This document shows, piece by piece, positions 17,394 through 29,493 of a DNA stretch of 64,000 nt. The DNA is from Stappia indica. GTDB taxonomy: Bacteria; Pseudomonadota; Alphaproteobacteria; Rhizobiales; Stappiaceae. Location: the NCBI RefSeq assembly GCF_020177335.1, contig NZ_JAIVMG010000007.1, positions 1 through 64,000 on the forward strand. Direction: 5' to 3'. The notes beneath the pieces were generated by a model, which was given only the letters and a program-made list of their open reading frames with translations, ran no database searches and was not told the origin of the DNA. The position numbers and the translations under genes were made by a program. Numbering within the stretch: the stretch's first letter is position 1; each line of letters starts with the position of its first letter.

Positions 17394-17792
17394 CCGCCCG
17401 GCGCCCCCGCTTGCTCGCTAGCCGGCCTATCGCGGTGGGCAAGCCCGCCAGCATCCCCACCCGCGCGTCCAGTCATCGCCCCACCGTCGTCGCCCCCACG
17501 CACGGGGCGGCGCCTCGACGGCGCGCCACGTCTTGCGCGAAATCTCTTCCCTTCCAGGAACGAATCGGGAATGATCCAACACGGTTCAAACTCTGACGAT
17601 TTCGTTAACGCAGTATTCAGAATTATCTTGTAAAAATATTTTCCTCGATGGCAAGATCAGCATTCCACATGCCGTCGAAGACAGTCATTTCGAGAATTGA
17701 TAACCGAGGCCTATTTCCGCAAGGTTTGCGGAAAAACCTCTGGAGCGACGCGAGAATTAATCTTTCGCCGCCACAGGCGCAGGAGTAACGGG
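17394..17792. other. Intergenic region between FlgN-like gene and flaG
   Basis: No supportable gene. Bases 17590-17650 are AT-rich and include a TTAA and runs of A/T that may hold the flaG promoter. I could not fit a sigma-54 (GG-N10-GC) or complete CtrA pattern. The region just before 17793 has an AGGAG ribosome-binding site. Confidence 0.5.
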
Positions 17793-18167
17793 ATGGAACC
17801 TGGAGCAGTCAGGACACCGGGCTACTCGGTCATCACACCGGCGATGCGCAGCGTCGAACCGGTCAATACCCCTTCGGTCGCCACCGATATTCCGCCCGAG
17901 CAGGCGGTTACCCCCAGCCGCGCGAGCGAGGCCCTGCGCCCCTCGGCGGAGAATGACCGGGAAACCGCGTCCTCTCCGCAAGGGCCGGTGAAGCGGGAAG
18001 AATACCGGGACGAGATCACCGATTCCCTGGTGTTCCGCGCCATCGACACGGAAACCGGCGAGATCCTTCGTCAGATCCCGGATGAGTCCCTGCTGCGGTT
18101 GCGCCGCGCCTTCGCCGAGACCACGCACAAGGACATGACCGGGCTCGGCCTCAACCGCAGCCTTTAG
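17793..18167 (+). CDS. flaG: FlaG-family flagellar protein
   Basis: A 124-residue protein; start MEPGAVRTPG chosen because AGGAG lies 8 bases upstream and the longer reading frame adds only basic non-family sequence. The N-terminal 80 residues are Pro/Ser/Glu-rich and variable. The C-terminal domain is FlaG-like: DSLVFRAIDTETGEILRQIP followed by DESLLRLRRAFAETT. FlaG proteins influence filament length in other bacteria; the molecular role is not settled. It sits just before the glycosylation module and flagellins. Confidence 0.82.
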   Translation: MEPGAVRTPGYSVITPAMRSVEPVNTPSVATDIPPEQAVTPSRASEALRPSAENDRETASSPQGPVKREEYRDEITDSLVFRAIDTETGEILRQIPDESLLRLRRAFAETTHKDMTGLGLNRSL

Positions 18168-18251
18168 ATGTGCCCCGAGCGCCGTCGCGCCGCCCCCAGC
18201 GGGCCGAATCGGCTATAGTGCGCGCCTGTTTTCTCCAGCGCGGACCCTTGG

Positions 18252-20072
18252 ATGCCGGCACTTTCCCAGACGACCCTCACCCAGATGCGCAAGGCACTGG
18301 TGCTTCAGCGCGACGGCAAGCCGGCGCGCGCTCGTCCGATCTATGAAAAGATCCTGAAGCAGGAGCCCGACAACGCCGAGGCAGCGAACCTTCTTGGCCT
18401 GTGCTTTCTGGAACAGGGGTTTGCCAAGCGGGCGCTTCCCCTGTTCGAGCGGGCAGTCCGGCTCGCCCCGCTGGAAGAGCGCTACCGGGTCAATCTTCTC
18501 GACGGGCTCGACCGGCTCGGCGACGACGGCGCACAGCTCGCGGCAACCGAGACCGCGCTTGCCGAGCTTCCCTCGCCCACGCCGGACCTGTTGCATCGCC
18601 GCGCTGGCCTGCTGCGCAAGACCGGCCGTTTCGCCGAGGCCCTTGCCGCCTATGACGCCGCCGCCCGCGCCGCGCCGGAAAACACGGAGATCCTGGTCGA
18701 ATTCGGCCAGACCCTGATCCTTGCGGGCAAGCATGAAGAGGCCGAACGGATCCTGCGCTTCGTCCTTTCCGCCGAGCCGACCCACCGACTGGCAATTCTC
18801 TCCCTCGCCGATGCGCTGAACCAGCTCGACCGCGCGCCCGAGGCGCTGGAGGTGCTGCGCATCACCGCCGACCGTTTCGCCGTCGGGCGGGATGCCGGCT
18901 ACCATCTCAGCCTGGCCAATGCCCATTGGGGCTGCGGCGCCTACCGCGCCGCGCTCGCCGAGACGGACGAGGCGATCCGGCTGGGGCTTACCAGCGTGGA
19001 CGCCCGGCTGTTGCGCGGCAAGGCGCTCTACCATCTCGGCCGGTTCGCCGAGGCCGCGGCGGAGCTGGAACAGGCGCTCGCGCTCGATCCGCAGCGCCAT
19101 GACGCGGCCATGACCCTTGGCCTGGCGCTGCTGTCCCAAGGGGACCTGGCCCGCGGCTGGACGCTCGCCGAACGGCGTGTGGAAGCCAGGCTCAAGGGCC
19201 TGATCACCCGGCGCTTCACCCGGCCAACATGGCGGGGCGAGGCGCTAACCGGCAAGACGCTGATGATCTGGGACGACCAGGGCATCGGCGATGTGCTGCG
19301 CTCCGCCTCCATGTTCGAGGAACTGGCAGAGCGCGCGGACCGCCTGATCGTCGAGTGTCATCCAAAGGTCGTGCCGCTGCTCGCCCGCAACTTCCCGCAA
19401 ATCGAGGTGCGCCAGCGCCGGCACGAGGGCGCCAATGCCCTGTTCAGCAGCGAGGATTTCGACTGCCAGTGTGCCTTCGGTGCGCTGCCGGCGCAGCTGC
19501 GCCCCGACATCGCCTCCTTTCCCGAGCGCCCCGCCACCCTCACCGCCGATCCGGTGCGCGTCGCGGAGTTGCGCAAGCGTGCGCCGCTCGATGGCACACG
19601 GCCCCTCATTGGCCTGTCCTGGACCAGTGGTAACCGGACCGGCCAGCGCGCGCGCTCCTATCTGGCGCTTGCCGACCTCTTGCCGCTCCTGTCCATCCCC
19701 GATGCCGAATTCGTGCTGCTCGACTACACCGACCGCAGCGCGGAAATCGCCGCCCTTCAGGAAAAGGCGTCGATCACCCTGCACCGCTGGGACGATCTCG
19801 ACCTGTTCGACGATCTGGAAACCGCCGCAGCCCTCACCGCCTGCATGGATCTGGTGATTTCGGCCAACACCTCGGTGGCCGACATGTCCGGCGCGCTTGG
19901 CGTGCTGACCTGGCGTTTCGGCCCGGTGACCGGCACCATCCTGCTCGGTCAGGAGGCCCCGCCCTGGGCGCCGTCGACCCGCTATCTGCGCCTCGATCCG
20001 GAGCAGCCCGCCGCTGCGGCGGTGCCCCGACTAGAAGCGGACCTGCGCAACTGGCTGGCGACACGGGCCTGA
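18252..20072 (+). CDS. TPR-glycosyltransferase, probable flagellin nonulosonic acid transferase (FlmG-like)
   Basis: A 606-residue protein. Residues 1 to about 300 are TPR repeats (ARPIYEKILKQEPDNAEAAN and several more). The C-terminal 300 residues are a GT-B type glycosyltransferase-like domain: GKTLMIWDDQGIGDVLRSAS, then PLIGLSWTSGN, and the sugar-nucleotide site region MDLVISANTSVADMSGALGV. This is the layout of Caulobacter FlmG, whose TPR part binds flagellin and whose GT part attaches pseudaminic acid. Just downstream, facing it, are genes for making and activating a nonulosonic acid, and then three flagellins. Function is inferred from architecture and context. A -10-like CTATAGT sits 40 bases upstream. 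Confidence 0.82.
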   Translation: MPALSQTTLTQMRKALVLQRDGKPARARPIYEKILKQEPDNAEAANLLGLCFLEQGFAKRALPLFERAVRLAPLEERYRVNLLDGLDRLGDDGAQLAATETALAELPSPTPDLLHRRAGLLRKTGRFAEALAAYDAAARAAPENTEILVEFGQTLILAGKHEEAERILRFVLSAEPTHRLAILSLADALNQLDRAPEALEVLRITADRFAVGRDAGYHLSLANAHWGCGAYRAALAETDEAIRLGLTSVDARLLRGKALYHLGRFAEAAAELEQALALDPQRHDAAMTLGLALLSQGDLARGWTLAERRVEARLKGLITRRFTRPTWRGEALTGKTLMIWDDQGIGDVLRSASMFEELAERADRLIVECHPKVVPLLARNFPQIEVRQRRHEGANALFSSEDFDCQCAFGALPAQLRPDIASFPERPATLTADPVRVAELRKRAPLDGTRPLIGLSWTSGNRTGQRARSYLALADLLPLLSIPDAEFVLLDYTDRSAEIAALQEKASITLHRWDDLDLFDDLETAAALTACMDLVISANTSVADMSGALGVLTWRFGPVTGTILLGQEAPPWAPSTRYLRLDPEQPAAAAVPRLEADLRNWLATRA

Positions 20073-20093
20073 CCCGCGCTCGCCCCCGTCACA

Positions 20094-20801
20094 TCACATC
20101 TGGATAGGATGAACCTCAAGATTGCGCGCCAGCCGTTCCAGCATCAGTTCGGCGACGGCGATATCGTCCGGCTCGTCGATCTCCACCACTTCCTCGTCGC
20201 TTGTCTCGAAGAAGCCGGTCCGCCCGGTCAGCCGGCAGCCCGTGCGCTCGAAGCTTTCCCGTCGGAACAGGTAGAAATTGCCGGTCTCGCGATAATACCG
20301 GTCTTCGGCCGGAATCTGTTGGCGCATCAGCCGGTTGTGTGGGTCGTAAAGCGGCTGCGGCTCGGGCAGGTTGCGCCAGATGTAGTTGCGGATCAGCCGG
20401 GCGGAGAACAGCGAGTCGAGCCCGTCTTCGCAAAAATGGCGAAACGCACCGGCCAGCGTCTCCCGGCGCCGCACCGGCGAGGTGACTTGCGGAAACAGCA
20501 CCGCCTCCGGCTTGTCCGGCCCGCACATCTCATTGAGCGCATGGCGCAAGGAAGCTTCCGCCGGCGAAGTGTCGGTGGCGAACTCCGCCGGGCGCAACAT
20601 CGGCACGCGCGCGCCGTGGGCCCGCGCCACCCCGGCGATCTCCTCGCTGTCGGTGGAGACGATCACATCGCGCACGAAGCCGGCCTCTCGCGCCGCCTCG
20701 ATGGTCCAGGCGATCAGCGGCTTGCCGAACACCGGCACGATGTTCTTGCCCGGAATGCCTTTCGACCCACCGCGCGCCAGCACGATCGCATCACAAATCA
20801 T
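20094..20801 (-). CDS. Acylneuraminate cytidylyltransferase family (CMP-nonulosonate synthetase)
   Basis: A 235-residue protein of NeuA/PseF size. The nucleotide-binding signature AIVLARGGSKGIPGKNIVPV is at residues 5-24. FGKPLIAWTIEAAREAGF, DVIVSTDSEEIAGVARAHGA, and TGNFYLFRR follow, matching CMP-Neu5Ac/Pse/Leg synthetases. It would activate a nonulosonic acid with CTP for the TPR-glycosyltransferase. The exact sugar (pseudaminic, legionaminic or neuraminic) cannot be told. Last gene of a leftward four-gene operon; its ATG overlaps the methyltransferase stop (ATGA). Convergent with the glycosyltransferase gene, 21 bases apart. Confidence 0.9.
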   Translation of the reverse strand: MICDAIVLARGGSKGIPGKNIVPVFGKPLIAWTIEAAREAGFVRDVIVSTDSEEIAGVARAHGARVPMLRPAEFATDTSPAEASLRHALNEMCGPDKPEAVLFPQVTSPVRRRETLAGAFRHFCEDGLDSLFSARLIRNYIWRNLPEPQPLYDPHNRLMRQQIPAEDRYYRETGNFYLFRRESFERTGCRLTGRTGFFETSDEEVVEIDEPDDIAVAELMLERLARNLEVHPIQM

Positions 20802-21550
20802 TGCTCTTTTTCCGCAAATACCGTCACGAATGACCCCCAGAAGGCTGGTGACACCCCCTCCTCCGGCCGCTGCATGCGCTCCCAGGCCTCTGCGGTCGCG
20901 AACCGCGTGCCGAAGAACGGATACTCCACGGAGAGGATACGGAACCCGCTGTCGCGCATCAGGCGCATCAGGGACTCGTCAGTGAACAGGCTGACATGGG
21001 TCGGATCATGGAGCAAGCGGTAGCGATCGCCGAACAGGCGGGCGGCGGCGCTGGCGAAATTCGGCGTGCCGACCACGAACAACCCGCCCGGCTTGAGCGC
21101 TGTTGCGGCGCTGCGCACGAAATCGACCGGCGCATCCATATGCTCGATCACGTGATGAGCCAGGATCGCATCGCAACTGCCGGCCGGGAACGTCTCCCCC
21201 GTCAGCTCCCCGCGCAAGGTTCGCGCGCCGCTTTCGGCCGCCGCCACCTCCACCGCCTTTTCGGACGGGTCGATGCCGATCCGCTCATGCCGGTCGTCGA
21301 TCTGCTCCAGCAACTCGCCAAGGCCGCAGCCGACATCGACCACCCGCCCGGAAGGGCGCGCATTGACCGCCTCGGCGATATAGGCCAGATCCGCCTTGCG
21401 CTGATCGCGTTCGGAGGCAAGGTCACGCACCCGCCCATCCGGATCGGCCTTGCCGTCCCAATATTCCTCCGCCGCCGGACGGGCCGGATAGCGCACGAAA
21501 TAATCCCGCGCCCCGTAGAGCGCCAGACAGCGGTCGATGATCGACGTCAC
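20798..21550 (-). CDS. Class I SAM-dependent methyltransferase in the nonulosonate operon
   Basis: A 250-residue protein with a GTG start that overlaps the preceding stop (GTGA). SAM-binding motif I is VVDVGCGLGELLEQIDDRHE, motif II region ERIGIDPSEKAVEV, then CDAILAHHVIEHMDAPVDFV and LKPGGLFVVGTPN. The N terminus (LYGARDYFVRYPARPAAEEY) and the RYRLLHDPTHVSLFTDESL segment resemble sugar- or polysaccharide-linked methyltransferases. From its place between pyruvyltransferase and cytidylyltransferase genes it probably methylates the flagellar sugar or its precursor. The acceptor is unknown. Confidence 0.85.
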   Translation of the reverse strand: MTSIIDRCLALYGARDYFVRYPARPAAEEYWDGKADPDGRVRDLASERDQRKADLAYIAEAVNARPSGRVVDVGCGLGELLEQIDDRHERIGIDPSEKAVEVAAAESGARTLRGELTGETFPAGSCDAILAHHVIEHMDAPVDFVRSAATALKPGGLFVVGTPNFASAAARLFGDRYRLLHDPTHVSLFTDESLMRLMRDSGFRILSVEYPFFGTRFATAEAWERMQRPEEGVSPAFWGSFVTVFAEKEQ

Positions 21551-22740
21551 GACAGCCCCTCCACTTGGCCGGCGAGCCAGCCGGCCAGATCCGCGTGATA
21601 GCGCTTCAGCACCGCCCGTTCACTGGCGCGGATGTCACCGAACCGCTGCCGCACCGGTGCCGGGTCGGCAAGATCGCGCGCAAGCTCGGCGAACAGCGGC
21701 GAAAGGTCTGCCCCCTCGCGCCATTCATGGCAGCGTGCCGCCAGATCATAGGCGGCGAACTGACCGGCGATCTTGTGATGGGTGGCGATGCCGAAAACCG
21801 GCGTGCCGAAGCCCATCGAGGCGAGACAGGCGTGATAGCGCATCGCCACCACTGCCTCGGCCCGGCGATAGAGATCGAAGGTCGGCGCCCATCCATGCTC
21901 GCCTTGCGCCAGTCCGGCGACTACCACCCGCTCGCGCCGCAACCGGTCGTCCAGCGCGTCGAGCACCGCGCCGATGGGGCCGAAATCGGAGTAGATATGC
22001 GGCACGAACACGCAAGCCAGCGTTTCATCGGCGGCAAGCAGCTCATTGAGCCCCTTGGCGATATCGGCGGCGAAGGCCTTTGTCAGATCTTCACCGCCTG
22101 CGCCGGCATAGCGCTTGTCCGGCATATCACCGGCAAGATTGACAGCGATGAAGCGGCTGCCCTTGGCAAGGCCCGGGAGACGCCCGCCCCCCGGCTCGGC
22201 GAACAGCCCGCCGTCGGGAACGATGGCCATCGCATCCGCATAGGCCGCGCCGAGATGATCGCGGATCAGATCCGCCGACCCGTCGTTGCGTAAGGAAAAG
22301 TGGCAGTGATCCATCGCCAGAAGCGCATCGAGGAAGGAGCGGCTGCGCTCCACCGCCAGCGGGCTGACACCGCGCGTGGCGTCGCAGCCGAGCCCGTGAA
22401 ACAGGATCGGCCGTCGGATGGCGGCAAACAGATCCGGCGTCGCCTCCAGATAGGTTCCAGACACCGTTGTCTCGCGCCAGAGCTGGAACAGGCTGAAACC
22501 GCCGATGACCACGAGATCGGCACGGTTCGCCTCGGCGATGAACGCCGCATCGAAGGCCCGCTCCCGCCAGTGAATGAACTGGCGCACCTCGCACGGGCGA
22601 TGGTCGAGTGCGAACGGCAGATCGGCGGCACGGGTCCGGTATTCGCCGTCGTGCATGGCATTGTCACCAAGATTGCCGACGAAGGAGGCAAGATGCAGGG
22701 CCTTCAGCGGTGCCCTGCGGGGCGTGAGGGCGGCTGTCAC
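21547..22740 (-). CDS. Polysaccharide pyruvyltransferase family protein
   Basis: A 397-residue protein. The start is the GTG at 22740, which overlaps the neuB stop (GTGA); further upstream the frame runs through neuB. It follows the PS_pyruv_trans pattern: ASFVGNLGDNAMHDGEY at the N terminus, ADLVVIGGFSLFQLWRET, ILFHGLGCDATRGVSPL, FSLRNDGSADLIRDHLG, VPDGGLF, and a C-terminal RAEAVVAMRYHACLASMGFG with GTPVFGIATHHKI. The family transfers pyruvate from phosphoenolpyruvate to sugars, though some members act in other ways. A pyruvylated or similarly modified flagellar glycan is the simplest inference. Confidence 0.82.
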   Translation of the reverse strand: MTAALTPRRAPLKALHLASFVGNLGDNAMHDGEYRTRAADLPFALDHRPCEVRQFIHWRERAFDAAFIAEANRADLVVIGGFSLFQLWRETTVSGTYLEATPDLFAAIRRPILFHGLGCDATRGVSPLAVERSRSFLDALLAMDHCHFSLRNDGSADLIRDHLGAAYADAMAIVPDGGLFAEPGGGRLPGLAKGSRFIAVNLAGDMPDKRYAGAGGEDLTKAFAADIAKGLNELLAADETLACVFVPHIYSDFGPIGAVLDALDDRLRRERVVVAGLAQGEHGWAPTFDLYRRAEAVVAMRYHACLASMGFGTPVFGIATHHKIAGQFAAYDLAARCHEWREGADLSPLFAELARDLADPAPVRQRFGDIRASERAVLKRYHADLAGWLAGQVEGLS

Positions 22741-23606
22741 GATGACGCCAGCGTGTCCTTCCGGCGCAGCTTTTCCATGATCGGACGCTCGCGGCCGTAA
22801 ATGTCGATCACCCCGTTGCCGCGCAGTTTCTCGGCAAGACGGATCCCCTCGATCATCTCCTTCATCTGGGCACCGTCGATGGAGGCGGCCTGGTCGGAGC
22901 CCCACATGGCCCGGTCGCGGGTGAAGTGACGCTCCACCGACACCGCGCCGAAGGCAATCGACAGGATGCTGGGCAGGATGCCTTCCTCGTGCCCCGAATA
23001 GCCGATCTTCAGATGCGGGAACCGCTCGCGCAAGGTGGAAATGCCGGCGAGATTGATCTCCTCCGGCAGCGCCGGATAGGTCGAGGTGCAGTGATAGAGA
23101 CAGGCGATCTCACCGCCGGCCGCCTCGATCGTCTCCACCGCGGCCTCGACGATCTTCAAATCGCACATGCCGGTGGAGATGAGCAGCGGCACCCCGCTGC
23201 GGGCCGCATGCACCAACAGCCCCCTGTCGGTGACCGAGGCGGAAGCGATCTTCAGATAAGGAACGTCGAGCGCGACCAGGAAATCCACCGACGCCTCGTC
23301 CCAGGGCGAGGCGTACCAGACGATGCCAAGTTCAGCGCACAGGGCGGCGATCCGCTCATATTCGGTGCGGCCGAACTCCAGCCCCCGCTTCAAGTCGCCA
23401 TTGGTTTCGCCGAGCGGGGAGACACGCGGACGGGCAAGTTCCTCTGCGGAATAGACCACATCGACGGTGCGCTTCTGAAACTTGACCGCGTCGCAACCGG
23501 TCCGATGGGCCGCCCGGATCATCTCAAGCGCCAGATCGATGCTGCCATTGTGGTTGATGCCGATCTCGGCGACGACCGTACAGGTATCAAAGGTGAAGAG
23601 ACTCAT
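22737..23606 (-). CDS. neuB: NeuB-family nonulosonic acid synthase lacking the C-terminal SAF domain
   Basis: A 289-residue protein beginning MSLFTFDTCTVVAEIGINHN; about 37 upstream in-frame codons are basic, non-family sequence. It carries the TIM-barrel NeuB motifs: EIGINHNGSIDLALEMIRAA, CDAVKFQKRTVDVVY, YLKIASASVTD, LISTGMC, YHCTSTYPALPEEINL and IGYSGHEEGILPSILSIAFG. The enzyme condenses PEP with a hexosamine to give a nonulosonic acid. Classical NeuB/PseI (about 340-350 residues) ends in an antifreeze-like SAF domain that helps bind substrate; this protein stops right after the barrel (GRERPIMEKLRRKD). First gene of the glycosylation operon, divergent from flagellin 1. Confidence 0.88.
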   Translation of the reverse strand: MSLFTFDTCTVVAEIGINHNGSIDLALEMIRAAHRTGCDAVKFQKRTVDVVYSAEELARPRVSPLGETNGDLKRGLEFGRTEYERIAALCAELGIVWYASPWDEASVDFLVALDVPYLKIASASVTDRGLLVHAARSGVPLLISTGMCDLKIVEAAVETIEAAGGEIACLYHCTSTYPALPEEINLAGISTLRERFPHLKIGYSGHEEGILPSILSIAFGAVSVERHFTRDRAMWGSDQAASIDGAQMKEMIEGIRLAEKLRGNGVIDIYGRERPIMEKLRRKDTLASS

Positions 23607-23834
23607 CTCGCGATCTTTTCGGGCTCGCGGCGAACGCGGCCTTAGGGCGGTTGGCCTGGCGCGTTCGCGGGTTTCGCTGGTCTTGCGCCGGCGGACGATC
23701 GTCCCCCTGCCGGTCACCGCGCGGCATCAATATCCCCGTTTGACCTGATTCGGCGAGATCTTTTTGGTCACCCGCGCTTTCACAGCAACCGTAGAGGTAC
23801 CGGAGTCTTTCACTCGCCAACGTCAAATTAACCA

Positions 23835-23846
23835 TAACGTACGTTA
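23835..23846. promoter_or_regulatory. Perfect 12-base palindrome upstream of flagellin 1
   Basis: TAACGTACGTTA, 94-105 bases before the flagellin 1 ATG, next to a TTAACCAT half-site. Likely a dimeric regulator site. Confidence 0.45.
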
Positions 23847-23851
23847 ACTAT

Positions 23852-23865
23852 ATGTGTTTACACAT
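23852..23865. promoter_or_regulatory. Second palindrome upstream of flagellin 1
   Basis: ATGTGT-TT-ACACAT, perfect 6-base arms, five bases after the first palindrome. It is absent upstream of flagellins 2 and 3. Confidence 0.4.
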
Positions 23866-23939
23866 GCTCTCCCCACACGGCGCTACATTGGAACTGCAAC
23901 GAGAATACGTTGCGTAAACGCACCAGAAAGGTACGACCA

Positions 23940-25328
23940 ATGAGCGATGTGACTCTTTCCGCTGGCGTTCGCCAGAATCTGCTCTCTCTCCAGAAGACCG
24001 CCGACATGATGTCAGCGACCCAGAACCGCCTTGCCACCGGCAAGAAGGTGACCTCGGCGCTGGACAATCCGACGAACTTCTTCACCTCGCAGAACCTGAA
24101 CTCCCGCGCCAACGAGCTGTCCAACCTGCTGGACGGCATTTCCAACGCCACCAAGACGCTGGAAGCTGCCGACAACGGCATCAAGGGCATTACCAAACTG
24201 GTGGAAAGTGCCCAGTCCACGGCGCGTCAGGCGCTGCAGGACGGCGGTGCCGGCTCCGGCACGGTGATCGAATCCTCGTCCTCGATCTCCACCAACGGCC
24301 TGACCCCGGCCGCCGGTGAATCGATCCAGGATCAGGCCAAGCGCCAGACCCTGTCGAACCTCGGGTTCGCCGCCGGCGACACCATCGAGCTGCAGGCCAC
24401 CGACACCACGACCGGATCGGTTTCAACGATCTCGATCACCGTCGGCACCACGCAGAAGGCCGACGGCTCGGGTGCCGTGGCCACCGTCCAGGACGCAGTC
24501 GACGTGATCAACGCGTCGGGTGTTGCCTCTGCGGAAGTCACCGATGCCGGCAAGCTGAAGCTCTCCGGCAGCGACACGGACACGCTGAACCTGACCGTCA
24601 CCGACACCGGCGGCGACGCCTCCACGGCGACGACCCAGGCCACCTCGCTGGCCGCCAGCCTCGGCTTCGGCACCAACTCCAGCGTCGACCTGTCCGATCC
24701 GGCCGATGGCGACTATGTGGATGCCGGCGAAACCGCCGTCACCTTCACCGATGGTGCCACCGCCGGTGCAGCCGACAGCCTGTCGATCACCGCCCAGGCC
24801 AACCCGGCGGCGAACTCCACCTCGCGCCAGAAGCTGGTGTCACAGTTCAACGATATCATGGGTCAGATCGACAAGCTGGCCGCCGATTCCTCGTTCAACG
24901 GCACCAACCTGATCGACTCTTCGTCGTCGAAGCTCACCGTTGCCTTCAACGAAAAGCGCGATGCGGCCTCGAAGTCCGAATTGACGGTCAGCGGCAAGGA
25001 CCTGACCTCGTCCGGTCTGGGCATCTCCCAGGTGACCAGCCTCAGCGACGCTGAGGCGAATGCGACGCTCGACGACCTCAGCGCCGCGCTCGGAACCCTG
25101 CGCGAGGCGTCCTCGACCTTCGGTTCGAACCTGAACACGGTTACGATCCGTCAGGACTTCACCAAGGACCTGATCAACACCCTTCAGACGGGTGCGGACA
25201 ACCTGGTGCTGGCCGACACCAACGAGGAAGGCGCCAACCTCTTGGCGCTGCAGACCCGCCAGTCCCTGTCGACGACGGCCCTGTCGCTGTCCTCGCAGGC
25301 CGATCAGGCAGTGCTGCGCCTGCTCTGA
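23940..25328 (+). CDS. Flagellin 1
   Basis: A 462-residue flagellin starting MSDVTLSAGVRQNLLSLQKT, with GAAAGG 8 bases upstream; an in-frame ORF extension of ten codons is leader. The conserved N-terminal D0/D1 helices (NRLATGKKVTSALDNPTNFF) and C-terminal D0/D1 (NLVLADTNEEGANLLALQTR, ending QADQAVLRLL) flank a Ser/Thr/Asp/Gly-rich central region with a flagellin-IN-like segment. No cysteine is seen. It is the most divergent of the three tandem flagellins, which all have exactly 462 residues. The many surface Ser/Thr residues fit O-glycosylation by the adjacent module. Ends at an intrinsic terminator, so it is its own transcription unit. Confidence 0.96.
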   Translation: MSDVTLSAGVRQNLLSLQKTADMMSATQNRLATGKKVTSALDNPTNFFTSQNLNSRANELSNLLDGISNATKTLEAADNGIKGITKLVESAQSTARQALQDGGAGSGTVIESSSSISTNGLTPAAGESIQDQAKRQTLSNLGFAAGDTIELQATDTTTGSVSTISITVGTTQKADGSGAVATVQDAVDVINASGVASAEVTDAGKLKLSGSDTDTLNLTVTDTGGDASTATTQATSLAASLGFGTNSSVDLSDPADGDYVDAGETAVTFTDGATAGAADSLSITAQANPAANSTSRQKLVSQFNDIMGQIDKLAADSSFNGTNLIDSSSSKLTVAFNEKRDAASKSELTVSGKDLTSSGLGISQVTSLSDAEANATLDDLSAALGTLREASSTFGSNLNTVTIRQDFTKDLINTLQTGADNLVLADTNEEGANLLALQTRQSLSTTALSLSSQADQAVLRLL

Positions 25329-25548: not shown

Positions 25549-26937
25549 ATGTCCGATATCACCCTTTCCGCCGGTGTGCGCCAGAACCTGCTGACGCTGC
25601 AGAGCACCGCAGACATGATGGGCATGACCCAGAACCGTCTTGCCACCGGCAAGAAGGTCAACTCGGCCCTCGACAACCCGACCAACTTCTTCACCTCCCA
25701 GGCCCTGTCGGCCCGCGCCAACGACCTCAACAACCTGCTTGACGGCATCGGCAATGCCATCAAGACGATCGAGGCTGCCGACAACGGCATCACCGCCATC
25801 ACCAAACTGGCGGAAAGCGCCCAGTCGACGGCGCGGCAGGCCCTGCAGGACGGCAGTGCCGGCTCCGGCACCGTGGTGGAAAGCTCCTCCTCGATCTCCA
25901 CCAATGGCCTTGCGCCGATCGCCGGTGAATCGATCCAGGATCAGGCCAAGCGTCAGACCCTGTCGAACCTCGGCTTCGCCGCTGGCGACACCATCGAGGT
26001 GCAGACCACCGACACCGAAACGGGTCAGGTCTCCAGCATCAGCATCAATGTCGGCACCACCCAGAAGGTTGACGGCTCCGGTCCGGTTTCGACCGTGGCC
26101 GACGTGCTGGATGTCATCAACGCCTCGGGCACCGTCACCGCCGAAGTCACCGATGCGGGCAAGCTCAAGCTGACCGGCTCGGACGCCCAGACCGTCAACC
26201 TGTCGATCACCGACACCGGCGGCGACGCCTCCACGGCGACGACCCAGGCCACCTCGCTGGCCGCCAGCCTCGGCTTCGGCACCAACACCAACATCGACCT
26301 GTCTTCGCCCGCCGATGGCGACTATGTGGATGCCGGTGAAACCGCCGTCACCTTCACCGACGGCGCCACCGCCGGCGCTGCCGACGTCCTGTCGATCACG
26401 ACACAGGCCAACCCGGCGTCGAACTCCTCCACCCGTCAGAAGCTGGTCACCCAGTTCAACGACATTCTCGGCCAGATCGACAAGCTCGCCGAGGATTCCA
26501 GCTTCAACGGCATCAACCTGATCAACACCTCGTCGTCCAAGCTCACCGTTGCCTTCAACGAAAAGCGCGACGCGGCCACCAAGTCGGAGTTGAAGATCGG
26601 TGGTGAGGACCTGACCTCCTCGGGGCTCAACATCACCAAGGCCACCAGCCTCAACGACACGGAAGCCAACGCCGCGCTCGACGAGTTGGCCAACGCCCTG
26701 ATCACCCTGCGCGAGGCCGGATCGAAGTTCGGTTCCAGCCTCTCCACGGTGCAGATCCGCAAGGACTACACCAAGGCCTCGATCAACACCCTTCAGACGG
26801 GTGCGGACAACCTGGTGCTGGCCGATACCAACGAGGAAGGCGCCAACCTCCTGGCGCTGCAGACCCGCCAGCAGCTCTCGACCACGGCGCTGTCCATGGC
26901 CTCCCAGGCCGACCAGGCGGTGCTGCGGCTCTTCTAA
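25549..26937 (+). CDS. Flagellin 2
   Basis: A 462-residue flagellin, almost the same as flagellin 3 over long stretches and clearly related to flagellin 1. It starts MSDITLSAGVRQNLLTLQST, with AAAGGA 9 bases upstream. N- and C-terminal flagellin domains are intact (NRLATGKKVNSALDNPTNFF; TRQQLSTTALSMASQADQAV, ending LRLF). Its last 160 bases are nearly identical to those of flagellin 3 at DNA level, which suggests gene conversion. Independent unit: terminator of flagellin 1 upstream and its own terminator downstream. Confidence 0.96.
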   Translation: MSDITLSAGVRQNLLTLQSTADMMGMTQNRLATGKKVNSALDNPTNFFTSQALSARANDLNNLLDGIGNAIKTIEAADNGITAITKLAESAQSTARQALQDGSAGSGTVVESSSSISTNGLAPIAGESIQDQAKRQTLSNLGFAAGDTIEVQTTDTETGQVSSISINVGTTQKVDGSGPVSTVADVLDVINASGTVTAEVTDAGKLKLTGSDAQTVNLSITDTGGDASTATTQATSLAASLGFGTNTNIDLSSPADGDYVDAGETAVTFTDGATAGAADVLSITTQANPASNSSTRQKLVTQFNDILGQIDKLAEDSSFNGINLINTSSSKLTVAFNEKRDAATKSELKIGGEDLTSSGLNITKATSLNDTEANAALDELANALITLREAGSKFGSSLSTVQIRKDYTKASINTLQTGADNLVLADTNEEGANLLALQTRQQLSTTALSMASQADQAVLRLF

Positions 26938-27161: not shown

Positions 27162-28550
27162 ATGTCCGATATCACCCTTTCCGCCGGTGTCCGTCAGAAC
27201 CTGCTGACGCTGCAGAACACCGCGGACATGATGGCCACCACCCAGAACCGTCTTGCCACCGGCAAGAAGGTCAACTCGGCGCTGGACAACCCGACCAACT
27301 TCTTTACCGCCCAGGCCCTCTCGGCCCGCGCCAACGACCTCGACGCCCTGCTTGACGGCATCAGCAACGCCATCAAGACGATCGAGGCTGCCGACAACGG
27401 CATCACCGCCATCACCAAGCTGGTGGAAAGCGCCCAGTCGACCGCCCGTCAGGCCCTGCAGGACGGCGGCGCCGGTTCGGGCACCGTGGTGGAAAGCTCC
27501 TCCTCGATCTCCACCAATGGCCTTGCGCCCATCGCCGGTGAATCGATCCAGGATCAGGCCAAGCGTCAGACCTTCGCCAACCTCGGCTTCGCCGCAGGCG
27601 ATACCATCCAGGTGCAGACCACCGACACCAACACCGGCACGGTCTCGAATTTCGACATCATCATCGGCACCACCCAGAAGGCCGATGGATCCGGTCCGGT
27701 GACCACCGTCGCCGATGCGCTGGATGTCATCAACGCCTCGGGCATCGTCACCGCCGAAGTCACCGATGCGGGCAAGCTCAAGCTGACCGGCTCGGACGCC
27801 CAGACCGTCAACCTGTCGATCACCGACACCGGCGGCGACGCCTCCACGGCAACGACCCAGGCCACCTCGCTGGCCGCCTCGCTGGGCTTTGGCAGCAACA
27901 CCAACGTCGACCTGTCCTCGCCCGCCGATGGCGACTACGTGGATGCCGGTGAGACCGCCGTCACCTTCACCGACGGTGCCACCGCCGGTGCGGCCGACGT
28001 GCTGTCGATCACCACCCAGGCCAACCCGGCGTCGAACTCCTCCACCCGTCAGAAGCTGGTCACCCAGTTCAACGACATTCTCGGCCAGATCGACAAGCTC
28101 GCGGGCGATGCCAGCTTCAATGGCATCAACCTGATCGACAGCTCCTCATCGAAGCTGACCGTCGCCTTCAACGAAAAGCGCGACGCGGCCACCAAGTCGG
28201 AACTGAAGCTGACCGGTGAGGACCTGACCTCCTCCGGGCTCAACATCACCCGGACCACCAGCCTCAACGACTCGGAAGCCAACGCCGCGCTCGACGAGTT
28301 GGCCAATGCCCTGATCACCCTGCGTGAGGCCGGCTCGAAATTCGGCTCCAGCCTGTCGATGGTGCAGATCCGCAAGGACTACACCAAGGCCTCGATCAAC
28401 ACCCTGCAGACGGGTGCGGACAACCTGGTGCTGGCCGACACCAACGAGGAAGGCGCCAACCTCCTGGCGCTGCAGACCCGCCAGCAGCTCTCGACCACGG
28501 CGCTGTCCATGGCCTCCCAGGCCGACCAGGCGGTGCTGCGGCTCTTCTAA
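27162..28550 (+). CDS. Flagellin 3
   Basis: A 462-residue flagellin starting MSDITLSAGVRQNLLTLQNT. Terminal domains are as in flagellin 2; differences concentrate in the central segment (TGTVSNFDIIIGTTQKADGS) and a few scattered positions. An AAAGGA ribosome-binding site is conserved. No strong U-tract terminator follows, only a hairpin (28585-28607), so some transcripts could continue into flbT-flaF, linking flagellin level and its post-transcriptional regulators. Confidence 0.96.
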   Translation: MSDITLSAGVRQNLLTLQNTADMMATTQNRLATGKKVNSALDNPTNFFTAQALSARANDLDALLDGISNAIKTIEAADNGITAITKLVESAQSTARQALQDGGAGSGTVVESSSSISTNGLAPIAGESIQDQAKRQTFANLGFAAGDTIQVQTTDTNTGTVSNFDIIIGTTQKADGSGPVTTVADALDVINASGIVTAEVTDAGKLKLTGSDAQTVNLSITDTGGDASTATTQATSLAASLGFGSNTNVDLSSPADGDYVDAGETAVTFTDGATAGAADVLSITTQANPASNSSTRQKLVTQFNDILGQIDKLAGDASFNGINLIDSSSSKLTVAFNEKRDAATKSELKLTGEDLTSSGLNITRTTSLNDSEANAALDELANALITLREAGSKFGSSLSMVQIRKDYTKASINTLQTGADNLVLADTNEEGANLLALQTRQQLSTTALSMASQADQAVLRLF

Positions 28551-28748: not shown

Positions 28749-29243
28749 ATGGCTCTCAAGATTGAACTCCGCCCCCGCGAACGATTCATCGTCGGCTCCA
28801 CGGTCATCACCAATGGAGATCACCGCACCCATATCTTCATCGAGGGCAAGGAACCGCTGCTGCGTGAGAAAGACATCTACACGGCGGAAACGGCCAACAC
28901 GCCGGCGAAGCGGATCTATCTGGCTGTTCAGCTGATGTACCTCAACCAGGATATCGAGAGCCACAGGGAAATCTACTTCGAGTTGATAGACGACTTTATT
29001 CGGGCAGCTCCAAGTACCATCAAACTCGTTGACGCCATCAACAATGAGATCTTAACCGGATCGCTCTACGGTGCCTTGAAACGGGCACGCGACCTGGTTG
29101 AATGTGAACGGGAACTGATCGAGAATGTACAATCTGGCCACCGCAGCATACCAGCAGACAACCCAATCGACGGTCAATCCGAGGGAGCTGGAAGCGACAC
29201 TTCTTCTGAAGGCGGCGGCCCGTCTTCAGGCAGTCAAGGATGA
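28749..29243 (+). CDS. flbT: Flagellin synthesis regulator FlbT
   Basis: A 164-residue protein. The first about 130 residues match FlbT: MALKIELRPRERFIVGSTVI, HIFIEGKEPLLREKDIYTAE, AKRIYLAVQLMYL, and IFLELID-like YFELIDDFIRAAPS. In Caulobacter FlbT binds flagellin mRNA 5' UTRs and promotes decay until the hook is complete. The C-terminal about 40 residues are Ser/Gly-rich and are encoded by DNA that also encodes the start of FlaF in another frame. The tail may therefore be a by-product of overlap. No clear ribosome-binding site precedes the ATG, in contrast to the flagellins. A TTACC-A-GGTAA palindrome lies at 28647-28657. Confidence 0.92.
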   Translation: MALKIELRPRERFIVGSTVITNGDHRTHIFIEGKEPLLREKDIYTAETANTPAKRIYLAVQLMYLNQDIESHREIYFELIDDFIRAAPSTIKLVDAINNEILTGSLYGALKRARDLVECERELIENVQSGHRSIPADNPIDGQSEGAGSDTSSEGGGPSSGSQG

Positions 29244-29493
29244 CTGGGACACCGGTGGGCCGATCACGCTCGATGAGGCGCTGTCCTACAACCGCCGTCT
29301 GTGGACCATTCTCGCCACCTCGGTCACCAGCCAGGACAATCCGCTGCCGCATGAGGTGAAGCAGAACCTTGGCTCGCTCGGCGCCTTCGTCCTGAAGCAC
29401 ACGCTGGATGTGATGACCGATCCGAAGCCGGAACGGCTGACGACACTGATCTCCATCAATCGCAACATCGCCCAGGGTCTGCGCGGCGGCTGA
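29125..29493 (+). CDS. flaF: Flagellin biosynthesis protein FlaF
   Basis: A 122-residue protein starting MYNLATAAYQQTTQSTVNPR, the standard FlaF start, inside flbT (119-base overlap, different frame). ELEATLLLKAAARLQAVKDD, NRRLWTILATSVTSQDNPLP and the C-terminal LTTLISINRNIAQGLRGG agree with FlaF. FlaF is required for flagellin secretion/translation and opposes FlbT in Caulobacter; the two are usually adjacent. The overlap implies translational coupling and a fixed stoichiometry. Confidence 0.92.
   Translation: MYNLATAAYQQTTQSTVNPRELEATLLLKAAARLQAVKDDWDTGGPITLDEALSYNRRLWTILATSVTSQDNPLPHEVKQNLGSLGAFVLKHTLDVMTDPKPERLTTLISINRNIAQGLRGG

Follow-up and report, generated by a model that had tools for sequence, protein, structure and literature searches.

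A candidate flagellin glycosylation module with a SAF-less NeuB-type synthase in Stappia indica

Introduction

The flagellin glycosylation systems closest to the locus described here are the FlmG system of Caulobacter (PMC7591256) and the sfmABCDE system of Shewanella oneidensis, in which deletion of any of sfmA to sfmD leaves flagellin at its unmodified mass (PMC3765264; this and the other papers are cited for those passages of their text that were available). Here we analyze a 64,000-nt stretch of DNA from Stappia indica (assembly GCF_020177335.1, contig NZ_JAIVMG010000007.1, positions 1–64,000 of the forward strand; hereafter the window), in which a tetratricopeptide repeat (TPR) protein and a four-gene operon headed by a NeuB-type synthase without a SAF domain lie beside three flagellin genes. 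We consider it probable, with limited confidence, that these genes form an FlmG-like module for the O-glycosylation of flagellin in the cytoplasm, its sugar being supplied by an ulosonate synthase from a SAF-less branch of the NeuB family.

SfmA is a NeuB-domain-only protein (873 bp; 290 aa as the passage reads) with a Maf gene upstream, and its N-terminal domain is homologous to PseI according to the authors (PMC3765264). The Shewanella flagellin modification carries O-methyl groups, which the authors place on the outer part of the glycan; arithmetic on the printed ions gives this outer part, by difference, the nitrogen-free composition C11H20O7. The inner 274-Da sugar contains nitrogen (PMC3765264) and could instead be the product of SfmA. 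In Neisseria meningitidis NeuB, Arg314 of the SAF domain helps to position the N-acetyl group and the aldehyde of N-acetylmannosamine (ManNAc) (PMC6795526), and the R322A substitution abolishes the function of Caulobacter NeuB (PMC7591256), Arg322 being taken here to be the same SAF arginine. The ketodeoxynononic acid 9-phosphate (Kdn-9-P) synthase of Prymnesium accepts mannose-6-phosphate but not any of the six other sugars assayed (PMC6200933). A Serratia NeuB that makes Kdn is encoded by a 2241-bp open reading frame (ORF) with an extra isomerase/epimerase domain (PMC9000132) and is not used as proof here.

Results

Organization and Conservation of the Locus

The S. indica genome comprises 4.66 Mb in 40 contigs and is 99.97% complete. 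The genes concerned, with the families or features that identify them, are the following, context genes last.

22737..23606, minus strand: SAF-less NeuB-type ulosonate synthase, 289 aa, barrel only (PF03102, Pfam E 2e-69, without PF08666)
21547..22740, minus strand: PF04230 polysaccharide-pyruvyltransferase-like protein (PS_pyruv_trans, Pfam E 9.5e-10, 39.3 bits)
20798..21550, minus strand: S-adenosylmethionine-dependent methyltransferase (Methyltransf_23, Pfam E 2e-25)
20094..20801, minus strand: cytidine monophosphate (CMP)-sugar synthetase (CTP_transf_3, Pfam E 3e-22)
18252..20072, plus strand: TPR protein, candidate flagellin glycosyltransferase, with a C-terminal alpha/beta half (TPR families, fold model, FlmG-like layout)
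23940..25328, plus strand: flagellin 1, presumed acceptor, divergent from the operon (PF00669 and PF00700)
25549..26937, plus strand: flagellin 2, presumed acceptor (PF00669 and PF00700)
27162..28550, plus strand: flagellin 3, presumed acceptor (PF00669 and PF00700)
28749..29243, plus strand: FlbT (PF07378)
29125..29493, plus strand: FlaF (PF07309)
17697–18167: short FlaG-family protein directly upstream of the TPR protein (PF03646, 25.7 bits, cut-off 23.8)

An earlier note, made from the DNA letters alone, had described a TPR gene facing an operon for a NeuB-like synthase, a pyruvyltransferase-like protein, a methyltransferase and a CMP-sugar synthetase, close to three flagellin genes. All five genes lie where it placed them and have Pfam support, and the flagellins are confirmed by both of their domains and accompanied by FlbT and FlaF. 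Read 5′ to 3′ on the minus strand (23606–20094), the operon runs from the synthase through the PF04230 protein and the methyltransferase to the CMP-sugar synthetase, and its three junctions are 4-nt overlaps (GTGA, GTGA and ATGA), so that the genes are probably translated together. The TPR gene is convergent with the 3′ end of the operon, and the flagellin genes lie upstream of the operon and diverge from it.

All three further same-genus genomes in the genome listing (G146, G173 and G195, with 73–92% identity) keep this gene order, the G173 contig stopping after the first flagellin. L022, which belongs to another genus of the family, also has these five kinds of gene clustered, in a rearranged order. 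No sigma-54 site with up to three mismatches was found in 18100–18300 or 23500–24000. The flbT and flaF genes overlap by 119 nt in the window; comparably long overlaps occur in L017 (98 nt) and L018 (119 nt).

A NeuB Barrel without the SAF Domain

By Pfam, the synthase has the barrel domain PF03102 and no C-terminal SAF (antifreeze-like) domain (PF08666), which sets it apart from the SAF-bearing NeuB, PseI and LegI enzymes. Its NCBIfam scores fall well short of the cut-offs, with 234.5 of 399.65 bits for NeuB and 186.2 of 340.25 bits for PseI. In an alignment with SAF-bearing relatives it terminates cleanly past the barrel. Its structural model is a complete barrel (predicted local distance difference test score, pLDDT, 94.2) whose nearest folds are NeuB/PseI/SpsE (template modelling (TM)-score 0.85 to NeuB), followed by DAHP and KDO8P synthases. 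Loss of the domain through a frameshift or annotation error was considered and rejected, because the absence is common to the genus and to all 80 listed relatives.

The residues of the phosphoenolpyruvate (PEP) and metal half of the active site are kept (E14, K42, Q44, K119, Y177, S204, H206, E225, H227 and D238). H227 is equivalent to H236 of N. meningitidis NeuB, which we take to be an active-site position. E14, Q44, K119, Y177, S204, H206 and E225 correspond to E25, Q55, K129, Y186, S213, H215 and E234 of the same enzyme, whose list of PEP and metal residues, H236 excepted, is taken from PMC6795526. Other positions separate the two kinds of synthase, as counted over 93 SAF-less and 12 SAF-bearing rows with one cut row omitted. 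The position of N. meningitidis NeuB E134 is Glu or Asp in all 12 SAF-bearing rows and in none of the SAF-less ones, where it is Ser (60), Met (15), Cys (9), Leu (3), Ala (3), Arg (2) or Val (1). R46 is Arg in 93/93 SAF-less against 2/12 SAF-bearing rows, W102 is Trp in 92/93 against 0/12, and position 205 is Gly in 89/93 against 0/12.

Relatives were collected by one profile scan of genome contigs, with the alignment of the genus and L022 as query, which yielded at least 80 loci and is no census; since the query is SAF-less and only the best matches are listed, the sample favors SAF-less relatives. The 80 listed relatives are 45–64% identical over the best segment, and in every one the best ORF ends shortly after the barrel. 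In the class sample, 10 of 385 genomes match at E 1e-60, three of them with SAF-bearing proteins; in the phylum sample, 43 of 398 genomes match at 1e-70, many of them through longer frames that are probably SAF-bearing, and 12 genomes, S. indica included, score above 400 bits. In a tree of the barrel, one branch (100/99) parts the 93 SAF-less rows from 11 SAF-bearing rows, the latter being a thin outgroup. This final tree omits L114_18221 (truncated where its locus ends) and L078_4 (cut at the start); an earlier quick tree of all 106 rows, including the two cut ones, needs two changes of SAF label.

The SAF-less branch spans many phyla. A SAF-less NeuB is present in the metagenome-assembled genome (MAG) of a Thermoplasmatales archaeon (L098:9956–10825), and a cluster in a Pelagibius MAG (L024:815–12684) contains three NeuB-type genes, two SAF-bearing and one SAF-less, together with a PF04230 gene and, by eye, HisH/HisF-like and PseG-like genes. 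The Leptospira protein 6ncs (290 aa) was considered as a member and is not counted with the branch, since in alignment it shows a gap at the K-R stretch of the SAF-less synthases. Literature searches, which covered mostly papers outside subscription, found no earlier description of a SAF-less NeuB and no pyruvylated or methylated flagellar ulosonate beyond the papers cited here; the available parts of PMC8053191 and PMC13214540 contain nothing on SAF-less synthases.

Recognized Precursor Routes in the Genome

The window synthase is the only NeuB-type gene in the genome. Genome-wide profile searches gave no PseG (found in 5 of 14 control genomes, Caulobacter included) and no Epimerase_2 (PF02350, for NeuC and LegG; found in 11 of 14). 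The PseB search gave weak matches like those of short-chain dehydrogenases/reductases (SDRs) only, the best at 31.6 of 407.75 bits; its control is the weakest, with weak matches in 14/14 control genomes and the cut-off reached in one. The search for the pseudaminic route covered PseB and PseG, and PseC and PseH were not searched. No SIS_2 isomerase was found in the genome, and Maf_flag10 gave no match there or in any control genome. With a single, SAF-less NeuB, neither PseG nor Epimerase_2, and PseB matches far below the cut-off, the recognized pseudaminic, legionaminic and neuraminic routes look absent.

The earlier note had reported that precursor genes were missing from the window, which holds, and had proposed a genome search for Pse and Leg homologues, which, as far as it was carried out, extends the absence of the searched genes to the whole genome. 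These searches, and the reduction of the synthase to the barrel, do not support its link to a nonulosonate of the pseudaminic or legionaminic type with a hexosamine precursor.

A pseudaminic- or legionaminic-type product would now mean that its precursor enzymes go unrecognized by the profiles and that the SAF-less synthase still accepts the hexosamine product, and we think this rather unlikely. Among NCBIfam models the CMP-sugar synthetase is nearest to PseF (134.7 bits, cut-off 205.7), and in L024 a SAF-less NeuB stands beside SAF-bearing ones and the PseG-like gene. The Shewanella nonulosonic acid next to serine has an N-acetyl group in an organism without clear PseG, PseH, PseI or PseF orthologues according to the authors (PMC3765264), so SfmA might make that sugar. 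Against these points stand the negative PseG and Epimerase_2 searches of a nearly complete genome with positive controls, the absence of a PseB near the cut-off, and the absence from the synthase of the SAF domain together with its arginine. A sugar without an N-acetyl group is therefore more likely than a pseudaminic-type acid, and the substrate specificity of the Prymnesium Kdn-9-P synthase makes a nitrogen-free sugar phosphate the natural candidate substrate.

Neighborhoods of SAF-less Synthases

Within 6 kb of the synthase, the listed loci encode a KdsC-like haloacid dehalogenase (HAD)-type phosphatase in 63/80 cases, an SDR in 35/80, a CTP_transf_3-like protein in 32/80, a SIS isomerase in 19/80, AP_endonuc_2 in 14/80 and Gfo/Idh in 10/80, as matched by models built from a few of the same 80 loci and, for CTP, from the window as well. 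One ORF matches both HAD and SIS in 7 loci and both HAD and CTP in 15, so that the neighbors are partly fusions. The frequency of the phosphatase implies phosphorylated products, and the set of isomerase, synthase, HAD phosphatase and cytidylyltransferase mirrors the pathway of 3-deoxy-D-manno-octulosonic acid (Kdo). In the Motiliproteus sediminis locus L025, the HAD protein matches KdsC phosphatases and 3e81, which we take to be the Bacteroides thetaiotaomicron Kdn-9-P phosphatase.

The product could accordingly be an eight-carbon, Kdo-like acid, or another nitrogen-free ulosonate of a length other than nine carbons, an outcome that we regard as unlikely. It would fit the Kdo-like neighborhoods, and a flagellin Maf transferase is able to transfer Kdo (PMC11339370). 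Against it, the genome already carries a canonical KdsA above the cut-off, and the synthase is much nearer to NeuB than to KdsA by both profile and fold.

Flagellar contexts recur around the SAF-less branch. In M. sediminis, a methyltransferase, a SAF-less NeuB, a PF04230 protein, the KdsC-like HAD protein and a CTP_transf_3 protein are encoded with FleQ-type regulators on one side and Maf, flagellin, FlaG and FliD on the other. In another alphaproteobacterial family (L116 and L118), a SAF-less NeuB and a TPR protein that is 26–27% identical to that of the window over ~610 aa lie among FlbT, FlaF, FlgI and FlgH. The fliO gene is within 50 bases of the synthase in 17 of the 80 listed loci, and Pfam confirmed FliO in 17/17. 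In this light we consider it improbable that the Stappia operon serves lipopolysaccharide or capsule synthesis and adjoins the flagellin genes by chance or through shared regulation: SAF-less NeuB is also found in clusters resembling polysaccharide loci, but the position within the flagellar cluster is kept in the genus, the TPR gene is convergent with the operon, and the flagellar contexts are repeated in unrelated lineages.

Two further arrangements were seen. L116:1–5266 and L118:13328–19001 each contain two more large TPR-like ORFs (812–975 aa, the outermost cut) adjoining the TPR protein near the flagellar genes. In six Gastranaerophilales-like MAGs (L038, L062, L065, L066, L067 and L071), NeuB and HAD are followed by a TPR protein of ~570–580 aa and then, by eye, an aspartokinase-like gene, with fliO upstream by model in 5/6.

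Putative Decorating Enzymes and the TPR Protein

The methyltransferase is kept across the genus, and methyltransferase-domain proteins also stand beside SAF-less NeuB in L022, L025 and L116. The PF04230 protein is matched by the CsaB model TIGR03609 (38.5 of 213.1 bits). R153, R303 and H305 (numbered from 22746) are invariant in 8 aligned rows and correspond, by motif and without an alignment to CsaB itself, to R148, R306 and H308 of that enzyme, whose PEP site includes R148, H308 and K328 (PMC10435577). The counterpart of K328 is K325 (counted by hand), at the same 20-residue spacing from the histidine, so that the PEP-binding residues are present; the window, L016, L022 and L025 have Lys at this position, L019–L021 have Gln and L114 has Arg. 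Methylation and pyruvylation of the sugar by the operon enzymes are plausible. Alternatively, the PF04230 protein may act otherwise, for instance as a second transferase, with the rest of the module as proposed; this is a serious possibility, short of probable. The protein has no sequence match in the PDB, a low Pfam score and 22–36% identity to its aligned relatives outside the genus, and against these stand the retained R..RxH..K residues of the CsaB PEP site with their identical histidine-lysine spacing. The genome has a second PF04230-like gene (G000:C6:192124–193107; L013, L023), 27% identical, in a locus that by eye resembles one for exopolysaccharide.

The TPR protein has 606 aa, and its repeats span residues ~13 to 300 by Pfam, as in the N-terminal half of FlmG-type proteins; orthologues in the three same-genus genomes are 73% identical. 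The best Foldseek matches of its AlphaFold model (mean pLDDT 87.8) are SPINDLY and OGT, over both halves (E 3e-15 to 5e-13, ranks 1–9). From its fold and FlmG-like layout, the TPR protein is a candidate glycosyltransferase that may transfer the sugar to flagellin.

Discussion

In the model that we favor, the synthase would condense PEP with an aldose that is not N-acetylated; most probably this aldose would be a sugar phosphate, for example mannose-6-phosphate. The resulting ulosonate phosphate would be dephosphorylated by a phosphatase encoded outside the operon, and the CTP_transf_3 protein would convert the free ulosonate to a CMP-sugar. The methyltransferase would O-methylate the sugar, to which the PF04230 protein might also add a pyruvyl group from PEP, and the TPR protein would transfer the CMP-sugar to Ser or Thr residues of the neighboring flagellins before their export. 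An O-methylated and perhaps pyruvylated, Kdn-like ulosonic acid without an N-acetyl group, carried on flagellin, is our best reading of the product. The modified nonulosonate on the filament that the earlier note envisaged stands in part: synteny and independent recurrence beside flagellar genes support a flagellin module with a decorated ulosonate, and the hexosamine-derived pseudaminic or legionaminic type is not supported.

Several observations weigh against this model. No KdsC-like phosphatase is encoded in the operon or found in the genome with two queries (one positive in 11 of 14 control genomes, the other without a positive control), so an unrelated phosphatase has to be assumed; Caulobacter, among the same controls, is likewise positive for KdsA and negative for KdsC, and the absence is thus not special to S. 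indica. Even at E 5, Pfam gives no match to the C-terminal half of the TPR protein, and the PDB gives no profile match to it apart from a single chance one (E 0.83); the SPINDLY and OGT matches have low global TM-scores (0.21–0.47) and root-mean-square deviations of 12.6–25.9, so that the name glycosyltransferase, which the earlier note had used, is drawn from fold and layout. The 39.3-bit Pfam score of the PF04230 protein is low, and relatives 33–37% identical to it accompany SAF-bearing NeuB in L019, L020 and L021, so that the gene does not go with the SAF-less synthase alone. Some SAF-less NeuB genes lie in clusters that by eye resemble those for surface polysaccharide (L154) or beside Leg genes (L121), and membership of the family alone is therefore no proof of a flagellin target; elsewhere the synthase adjoins aminotransferases, SDRs and Gfo/Idh enzymes, and its substrate may thus differ between clades. 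No flagellar genes were seen in the 19-kb stretch of L022. The Ser and Thr content of the flagellins is only slightly higher in the middle (25.0–27.5%) than at the ends (20.5–25.0%). Finally, SfmA would belong to the SAF-less branch only by its length and domain.

A wider proposal is tentative: the widespread SAF-less branch may provide a further biochemical class of flagellar ulosonic acid by joining PEP to a plain sugar phosphate, with a Kdn-like product that lacks an N-acetyl group. This product would be O-methylated and pyruvylated, and the transferase that places it on flagellin would be interchangeable, being a TPR protein in the Alphaproteobacteria and Maf in Motiliproteus and probably Shewanella. 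If so, the glycan of Shewanella flagellin would owe its methylated C11H20O7 portion to the same synthase branch, which offers a testable source for this unexplained nitrogen-free part. A NeuB gene beside flagellin is usually read as a sign of pseudaminic or legionaminic acid; that reading fails a direct genome test here, and loss of the SAF domain from the synthase is a likely cause. Because the branch occurs in many phyla and recurs near flagellar genes, a single substrate assay would bear on many loci annotated for N-acetylneuraminate synthase.

Comparison with Known Systems

The M. sediminis locus shares with the Stappia locus a methyltransferase, a SAF-less NeuB, a PF04230 protein and a CMP-synthetase adjoining flagellin; it differs in having Maf in place of the TPR protein and in encoding a KdsC-like phosphatase. 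We know of no experiment on this locus. The ketal pyruvyltransferase CsaB is comparable in that its model matches the window protein and its PEP-site residues are kept, whereas its acceptor is ManNAc in a cell-wall polymer (PMC10435577) and that of the Stappia protein would presumably be the ulosonate. The Kdn-9-P pathway of Prymnesium parvum and B. thetaiotaomicron joins PEP, as proposed here for the Stappia synthase, to a sugar phosphate that is not N-acetylated, with no route from uridine diphosphate N-acetylglucosamine (PMC6200933). The B. thetaiotaomicron Kdn-9-P phosphatase, taken here to be 3e81, belongs to the KdsC-like type that is frequent around SAF-less NeuB. The likeness is to the substrate proposed here, and the available passages of that paper give no flagellar link.

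The Shewanella sfm system has in common with the Stappia locus a NeuB-domain-only synthase and a methyltransferase, both needed for flagellin modification in Shewanella; in contrast, it has Maf instead of a TPR protein, contains a thiamine pyrophosphate (TPP) enzyme, an SDR and an ATP-grasp protein, and is accompanied by PseB and PseC (PMC3765264). The word “pyruvyl” does not occur in the available text of that paper. By eye, SfmB (the TPP enzyme), SfmC (the SDR) and SfmD (the methyltransferase) resemble in kind the neighbors of the synthase in several of the 80 loci. The FlmG system of Caulobacter shares a TPR protein of ~600 aa, with a C-terminal half that is a putative transferase in Stappia, a NeuB-family synthase, a CMP-synthetase and several flagellins, as well as the cytoplasmic O-glycosylation proposed here (PMC7591256); FlmG is likened to the Stappia protein by layout, not by sequence. 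Caulobacter uses a SAF-bearing NeuB with FlmA, FlmB, FlmD and FlmH (PMC7591256), whereas the Stappia synthase is SAF-less, the genome offers no PseG and no PseB near the cut-off, and the operon adds a PF04230 protein and a methyltransferase.

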